From Candidatus Poribacteria bacterium (GTDB taxonomy: Bacteria; Poribacteria; DTPJ01; WJIO01), in contig WJIO01000047.1 of NCBI GenBank assembly GCA_014730235.1, positions 1 to 13,477 on the forward strand: a stretch of DNA of 13,477 nucleotides. Direction: 5' to 3'. The notes below the pieces were generated by a model. That model did not search any database, was not told where the DNA came from, and worked only from the letters and a program-made list of their open reading frames with translations. How positions within the stretch are numbered: the stretch's first letter is position 1; each line of letters opens with the position of its first letter. The position numbers and the translations under genes were made by a program. This document shows positions 10,248 through 11,912 of the stretch, one piece after another.

Positions 10248-10301
10248 TAATTTTTTCTGAACCTCAGATATGAGTTTGAAAAAGGGGAAAATGATATTTT
10301 T

Positions 10302-10442
10302 ATTTCTTCTGGGTTTAGTGTGGTTATAATTGAAAATTCTCTCAGTTTGTCATTCCTGCTTCAAGCTTTTTTAAAAAGCTTGAAGCAGGAATGACAGCGT
10401 AAAGAAGTTTCTTATCTTTACCCCAGTCAAGCCGGAAGAGCC
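10302..10442. mobile_element. MITE-like non-autonomous element, copy B (141 bp)
   Basis: A second copy of the element seen at 2359-2478. It is flanked by a perfect 8-bp duplication ATATTTTT (10294-10301 and 10443-10450), which fixes both ends. The left end (10302-10324) has lost the terminal GGC (reads ATT) but continues TCTTCTGGGTTTAGTGTGG; the right end (10420-10442) reads GGCTCTTCCGG when reversed. The two match at about 15 of 23 positions, so this copy is older or more diverged than copy A. Outside the hairpin the interior is nearly that of copy A (TATAATTGAAAATTC on the left; TAAAGAAGTTTCTTATCTTTAC on the right). No coding capacity. Confidence 0.85.
10348..10396. repeat. Perfect 24-bp-arm inner hairpin of copy B
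   Basis: The arms 10348-10371 and 10373-10396 are exact reverse complements around a single central T. The outer part is the shared TGTCATTCCTGC; the inner part (TTCAAGCTTTTT) is unique to this copy, so the stem is twice as long as that of copy A. Paired changes on both arms imply that the hairpin itself, not just its sequence, is kept or was formed by copying one arm. Confidence 0.8.
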
Positions 10443-10493
10443 ATATTTTTTAAACTTGCTTAAATACGTTTGCAATATTAATATTCTCTATAT

Positions 10494-10676
10494 CTATTTT
10501 ATTGCAGCCCAGGTTATAGCAAGCTTATCAACTGGTTTTACAGCTAATACTCCCTCTGCACCAATATTCATGTAGGTATTTATCTGTTCTTCAGTAAAGC
10601 ACTCGTTGGCCATGATTAATTCATCAATGATACCCTCCATGAATCTGGCTCCACCACAGCTTTTTCCGATAATAAT
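10494..10676 (-). pseudogene. C-terminal remnant of a LamG/concanavalin-like domain protein
   Basis: The translated segment GGARFMEGIIDELIMANECF followed by TEEQINTYMNIGAEGVLAVK looks like the end of a LamG-type lectin domain (FxGxIDEvxIxNxALxxxxI), and the last residues AVKPVDKLAITWAAIK match the tail type that I recall from LamG proteins of Poribacteria. Only about 60 residues survive; the rest of the domain and the start are missing. Upstream in the same frame the sequence is endonuclease III DNA read out of frame, so homology starts near 10667-10676. It overlaps the 3' end of the endonuclease III gene (in another frame, same strand). A free-standing 77-codon frame from an ATG at 10727 exists but has no sensible domain start, so I call it a broken gene. 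Confidence 0.6.
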
Positions 10677-11301
10677 CACAATATCGACTGATCTTACACT
10701 TTTCACATCTGGGTTTCCTGCTGACACAAACGGACTGGCCGTGAAACATAATTAAATGGGAAAAGGCCGACCAGTTTTTCTTTGCCACCACTTCCATTAG
10801 ATCCTCTTCCATCTTATCAGGAGTTTTCTTATCCGTCAACCCCAAACGTTCTGATACCCTTACCAGATGGGTGTCCATTATTATTCCTGGCTTGTCATAG
10901 CAGTTTACCAGAAGCATATTGGCTGTCTTGCGCCCAACTCCGGGAAGAGATATCAGGTCATCCATATTATCAGGCACTTTACTGTCAAATTTTTCTATCA
11001 AAGTTTTGCAGCAAAGCTTAATGCGATTGGCCTTTCGGCTATATGCACCGGTGCTGAAAATTTCTTCTATAAGTGTATCCTTATCCGAATCTATATAGTC
11101 CTGAGGTGTTTTGTATTTATCAAACAGGGTTTCTGTAACCTCGTTTACCCTTTCATCGGTGCATTGAGCAGCCAGTATACTGGCTATAAGTAATTCAAAA
11201 GGGGTGGAGAAATTTAACCTGGGGCCAGCGTCGGGATATTCCTGTTCAAGTATGGGAATCATCTCCCTTACGTGCTTCTGCCGGGTTCGCTTTGTATACA
11301 T
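10624..11301 (-). CDS. nth: Endonuclease III (DNA glycosylase/AP lyase), altered C-terminus
   Basis: Removes oxidised pyrimidines and cleaves at abasic sites in base-excision repair. The helix-hairpin-helix is LPGVGRKTANMLL with the catalytic Lys, followed by the catalytic Asp in IMDTHLVRVSERLGL. The [4Fe-4S] loop is intact as C-x6-C-x2-C-x5-C (CVSRKPRCEKCKISRYC). The frame opens at a TTG at 11361, but that codon overlaps a promoter -35. The ATG at 11301, preceded by GGAGGT 10 bases away, gives the normal MYTKRTRQKHVREM start and about 225 residues. After the last cluster Cys, family members end within about ten residues; here DYYRKK continues into about 11 residues (LWWSQIHGGYH) read from the LamG remnant in another frame. 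The native stop seems to have been lost in a rearrangement. The core should still work. Confidence 0.93.
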   Translation of the reverse strand: MYTKRTRQKHVREMIPILEQEYPDAGPRLNFSTPFELLIASILAAQCTDERVNEVTETLFDKYKTPQDYIDSDKDTLIEEIFSTGAYSRKANRIKLCCKTLIEKFDSKVPDNMDDLISLPGVGRKTANMLLVNCYDKPGIIMDTHLVRVSERLGLTDKKTPDKMEEDLMEVVAKKNWSAFSHLIMFHGQSVCVSRKPRCEKCKISRYCDYYRKKLWWSQIHGGYH

Positions 11302-11361: not shown

Positions 11362-11379
11362 GACAAACTATGAATTTTT

Positions 11380-11551
11380 GGTTCTTCCGGGTTTAGTATG
11401 GTAAGGATTTCGCAGAAATTACATAAGAATATATTTTTTGAGCATTTACATCCGTTTCTTTATGCTGAAATCTTATAAATATTGGTTTTAGAAATCTTTT
11501 AGAATTATCAGCAATTTTTTTCATTTTCACCAGACTTAACCCTGAAGAGCC
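11380..11551. mobile_element. MITE-like non-autonomous element, copy C (172 bp, different interior)
   Basis: The left end (11380-11402, GGTTCTTCCGGGTTTAGTAT...) and right end (11529-11551, which reversed starts GGCTCTTCAGGG) pair at 19 of 23 positions. A perfect 8-bp duplication GAATTTTT flanks it (11372-11379 and 11552-11559). The ends belong to the same family as copies A, B and D, but the AT-rich interior of about 126 bases shows no resemblance to theirs and lacks the GTCATTCC hairpin. It encodes nothing convincing. It therefore shows that the ends alone define the mobile unit. It sits just upstream of the nth promoter. Confidence 0.85.
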
Positions 11552-11633
11552 GAATTTTTAGGGAATATATCATAATTTGTGTTTTTTCACAATAAGCAAG
11601 TTTAACGTCCAAATTTATGTCCGTGAAAACTTT

Positions 11634-11754
11634 GGCTCTTCCGGTTTGAGTATGGTAATAATTTGAAAATTCCCTCAGCTTGTCATTCCTGCGAAAGCAG
11701 GAATCCAGAAGCATCAGCACAAATAATGGATTCTTGCTTTCGCAGGAATGACAA
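11634..11754. mobile_element. Partial MITE-like element, copy D (left end plus inner hairpin)
   Basis: The left terminal repeat (11634-11656, GGCTCTTCCGGTTTGAGTAT...) and the adjoining TTTGAAAATTCCCTCAGCTT match copies A and B. After the inner hairpin the sequence departs from the other copies and no right terminal repeat or duplication of the flank AAAACTTT is visible. It is thus a one-ended, probably truncated copy, 74 bases beyond the duplicated flank of copy C. The remaining 158 bases up to the next gene show nothing I can identify beyond AT-rich sequence and that gene's ribosome site. Confidence 0.7.
11680..11754. repeat. 28-bp-arm inner inverted repeat of copy D
   Basis: Arms 11680-11707 and 11727-11754 are reverse complements at 27 of 28 positions, around a 19-base loop. 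Each arm contains TGTCATTCCTGCGAAAGCAG or its reverse complement, a palindrome class common in intergenic DNA of many bacteria. A smaller self-complementary hairpin (ATTCCTGC-GAAA-GCAGGAAT) is nested in the left arm. The pattern looks like the copy A hairpin duplicated in inverted orientation. Confidence 0.8.
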
Positions 11755-11912
11755 ATTTTGTAATTTACCATCATTATAAAGGTATTTTCTAAACACATTT
11801 TTCATTTTTTAACGATTACAATTTAAATTTACTGGTTTGTTTATGCCTGCAAATCATTGTTTTATTGGCTGCTCTGATGTAATATATTTTATACCAGAAT
11901 GGAGGTAACAAA

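Follow-up and report, generated by a model that had tools for sequence, protein, structure and literature searches.

The nth gene of this Candidatus Poribacteria genome raises the question of how a conserved repair gene came to end in DNA that, in another frame of the same strand, reads as the C-terminus of an unrelated, presumably secreted protein. The gene lies on the minus strand of the window, by which we mean the whole 13,477-nucleotide stretch analysed, and runs from ATG 11301 to TGA 10626-10624 (10624..11301, 225 aa); TTG 11361 could serve as the start of a longer reading. Its product scores 241.1 bits with the endonuclease III model TIGR01083, for which the curated cut-off is 211.7 bits, over profile positions 2-192 of 192. 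As expected of endonuclease III (Nth), the HhH-GPD domain is complete (Pfam), and sequence reading together with a pattern search finds four of four cysteines kept in the [4Fe-4S] loop C-x6-C-x2-C-x5-C, CVSRKPRCEKCKISRYC. When the product is aligned with E. coli Nth, the helix-hairpin-helix LPGVGRKTAN and the D of MDTH line up, and the closest solved chains are those of endonuclease III. By sequence, nth is a bona fide endonuclease III, and it is set apart by nothing but the 11 residues that follow CDYYRKK.

A second, divergent Nth-like protein is encoded in the same genome (G000, C271:33116-33733) and scores 117 bits, below the TIGR01083 cut-off. A scan of genome contigs for Nth found distant relatives only. 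Nth proteins above the cut-off occur in few genomes of the phylum, which suggests that the canonical nth has been lost or replaced in much of it.

The 3' end of the nth frame reads ...CEKCKISRYCDYYRKKLWWSQIHGGYH / ...CVSRKPRCEKCKISRYCDYYRKKLWWSQIHGGYH before the TGA, with the cluster cysteines followed by CDYYRKK, LWWSQIHGGYH and the stop in that order, so that the continuation of about 11 residues described in the initial annotation can be read directly in the sequence. The tail with its TGA occupies 10624..10659 on the minus strand. The closest nth compared comes from G001, a genome in the same order; it shows 58% identity over 212 residues and has the C-terminus CDYYKQV-stop. The two can be aligned up to window residue K233 (base 10663), and in this comparison at order level the stop of G001 comes one residue past the aligned end. 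The Nth proteins of relatives terminate within a few residues of the same point, and a tail like LWWSQIHGGYH is absent from all the other Nth C-termini inspected. The alignment of relatives proposed with the initial annotation thus puts the end of nth homology at K233, and the tail that it took to be foreign is shared by none of them. A conserved Nth body whose end is missing from its relatives is the pattern of C-terminal extension by stop displacement.

Counted from the last cluster cysteine, 17 residues remain to the stop, and across the Nth proteins read this number varies from 5 to 63. Because the 17-residue tail falls within that range, the enzyme probably still works and no effect on activity is expected. 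A tail kept by selection, affecting the repair enzyme through stability or partner binding, seems to us highly improbable; if true, a dead gene, read in a different frame, would have given rise to new protein sequence.

The bases that encode the tail also score as LamG in another minus-strand frame. This second frame is open for 77 codons, from GTG 10727 to TAA 10496-10494, with the product IIIGKSCGGARFMEGIIDELIMANECFTEEQINTYMNIGAEGVLAVKPVDKLAITWAAIK. A search of the genome itself, 451 contigs with 5.53 Mb in total, gave matches to the final 60 residues of this product at 78 places including their own. The best non-self match has an E value of 1.9e-9, and nearly all of these places are the C-terminal ends of frames of ~250-290 codons. 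The genome holds 92 Laminin_G_3 places, mostly single-domain frames of that same length, and its LamG family counts about 80 members. On the window sequence the Pfam Laminin_G_3 model alone gives 12.3 bits, which is not significant against a cut-off of 27.6, and the genome's own paralogs were therefore needed to show LamG identity. A LamG profile of 262 positions built from 27 of these paralogs gives 66 bits (E 9e-20) over positions 197-261 of 262, and the stop follows directly after position 261; scored residue shuffles (n=1,506) reach at most 7.4 bits with the same profile. The paralog matches and the profile score relative to the shuffles therefore identify the 77-codon frame as the 3' fifth of a LamG gene, as had been supposed from the sequence before any search of the genome. 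An accidental LamG resemblance beside a lineage-specific nth tail could draw on the sub-threshold Pfam score, but this reading is refuted by the paralog profile score and the shuffles, the more so with a stop directly after the match, and we give it practically no credence.

The remnant of the LamG (concanavalin A-like) gene spans 10494..10670 on the minus strand and comprises ~58 codons and its own stop. Compared with the genome's LamG family (PF13385) it has the C-terminal strands and the terminal motif and is without about four fifths of the protein, the missing first ~200 codons including the start. Upstream of the remnant the same frame contains stops. The 27-paralog profile, run over all frames of the window, finds nothing LamG-like outside this stretch, so the 5' part of the gene is gone. 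With family similarity and an incomplete domain, the remnant is, as judged from its sequence, not a functional family member, and is presumably dead. We also considered the 77-codon frame as a conserved stand-alone protein, which would have told against a remnant, and rejected this since whole family members have ~250-290 codons, with a typical size of ~260 aa, and the upstream part of the frame adds almost nothing to the LamG score.

The position of the join follows from the two homologies. Trimming the LamG frame codon by codon shows that the profile score rises mainly from codon 10670 (IG of IIIGKS) onward, with almost nothing gained upstream of 10676. Since the nth alignment ends at base 10663 and the LamG score rises at 10676-10670, the join lies within 10676-10660, an interval on the minus strand (10660..10676) whose bases may come from either parent. 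The initial annotation had placed a junction near 10665 between nth's last codons and the end of an unrelated gene; the mapped interval contains that point, with nth homology stopping at 10663 and LamG homology starting at ~10670. The overlap TATTATCGGAAAAAG would suit a microhomology join. A palindromic repeat at ~10296-10450 was considered as the cause of the join and rejected, as its place is not at the junction but ~40 bases past the LamG stop.

We consider it very probable that a rearrangement joined nth's last native codons to part of a LamG gene on the same strand. The break would have fallen after CDYYRK or CDYYRKK of nth, with the LamG 3' fifth joined there, and the event would have cost nth its original stop and the LamG gene its first ~200 codons. 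Because the nth and LamG frames differ, nth would then be translated for 11 codons out of frame, ending at a chance TGA. The earlier proposal that nth takes its stop codon from the LamG gene is thus right as to place, the TGA lying inside LamG DNA across two codons, ATT GAT, of the LamG reading, but not as to frame, for it is not LamG's own TAA. The simplest route would be an illegitimate deletion, though the sequence would also fit the breakpoint of an inversion or translocation, or an insertion.

Downstream of nth in G001 is a flavin-reductase gene, whose homolog here (74%) lies on another contig, C262. In this comparison of two genomes, then, the genes 3' of nth are not in the same order, which is what a breakpoint at this place would predict. 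The same observation implies that nth or its neighbour has moved, and so could also be accommodated by nth having been inserted into a LamG gene by transfer or transposition instead of being joined to it by loss of intervening DNA. Against such an insertion, the LamG profile finds no LamG 5' part upstream of nth anywhere in the window, where repeats and an opposite-strand gene are found instead, and with the best nth match in the same order no transfer from afar is needed. We regard insertion as very unlikely, and retain a joining of the two gene ends by rearrangement.

A single draft assembly, in 451 contigs, is the source of the join, and two fragments wrongly joined near 10660-10676 would produce the same sequence with no fusion in the organism. 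Draft status of this kind favors such a chimera, as does contig C244, which ends inside a LamG gene at a homologous position (...DPLWIGAR); moreover, one putative gene fusion in a published search for C-terminal extensions proved to be a replicated assembly error (PMC4494051). However, we looked for a DNA copy of the remnant or of the junction as a sign of duplication or misassembly and found none elsewhere in the assembly, and the end of C244 has no common string of at least 10 bases with the window. In addition, the stretch that both parents could supply is at most ~17 bases, which would be short for a k-mer join. A chimera is thus unlikely, and we infer that the join is present in the organism and not in the assembly alone. 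In our view the join is genuine, an ordinary accident in a decaying genome.

Several LamG genes of this genome are broken or truncated. A search for the orphaned 5' half found two without a C-terminus, on C244 and C262, of which the former is simply cut by the contig end. The gene on C262 (L077, G000:C262:16325-17600) is broken after about 200 codons and is followed by what appear by eye to be IS3-type transposase-like fragments. The best matches of both genes among the 27 paralogs differ from those of the window remnant, a weak test in that each of the three pieces represents another part of the domain, and neither could be tied to the junction as its missing half. With other LamG genes damaged, one of them beside transposase-like remnants, breakage in this large family is therefore not unusual here.

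Prokaryotic stops are said to shift between related genes, as Vakhrusheva and colleagues reportedly found. The nth join is one more instance of the known C-terminal extension by stop displacement. Stop-codon displacement in prokaryotes is described, according to the passage of PMC4161906 that cites it, by Vakhrusheva et al. 2011. As in that description, the gene loses its stop and gains a downstream one with the C-terminus alone changed, whereas here the new end is read, in a different frame, from the remnant of a gene that a rearrangement would have placed next to nth. In yeast and fly, de novo C-termini have arisen by stop loss (PMC4494051), and there too a short new coding stretch is added to an old protein. 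In those eukaryotic cases the added sequence is non-coding DNA just downstream and is still polymorphic, while nth, a bacterial gene seen with this end in one genome, has gained formerly coding DNA read out of frame. The locus provides a well-mapped example of a conserved bacterial gene that survives rearrangement in its last codons, and it illustrates that annotated C-termini can be accidental.

The window also carries a dispersed palindromic repeat, TTGTCATTCCTGC...GCAGGAATGACAA, with copies at 10296-10450, 11374-11409 and 11628-11760. Its 13-base core has 585 occurrences genome-wide and the reversed control has 0, and its arrangement is like that of MITE- or REP-type elements. Rfam has no match in the window, the repeat included.

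The end of the LamG remnant, AVKPVDKLAITWAAIK / VLAVKPVDKLAITWAAIK (10550-10497 of the window, minus strand), is a copy of a C-terminal tag of about AVEPxDKLxTTWGxIK. The same tag also ends non-LamG proteins of the genome, whose N-termini appear signal-peptide-like by eye; loci with the tag in LamG and non-LamG proteins include L107:304-1035, L108:331-981, L109:810-109 and L110:262-1083. No Pfam or NCBIfam model covers it in the proteins scanned, and the strings TTWGEIK, TTWGKIK and TTWGRIK were not found in print in the literature searched. A single-cell study of poribacteria has noted C-terminal sorting domains of the Por type with no accompanying Por machinery (PMC3909097). A 20-residue consensus of the tag has 29-131 matches per genome in each of the 24 genomes of the phylum that were searched, and the same search gives 0 matches in 13 genomes of other phyla. 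The tag resembles a signal for sorting or anchoring, specific to this phylum and so far undescribed; it matters more than the join, as it may mark an undescribed protein-sorting route.
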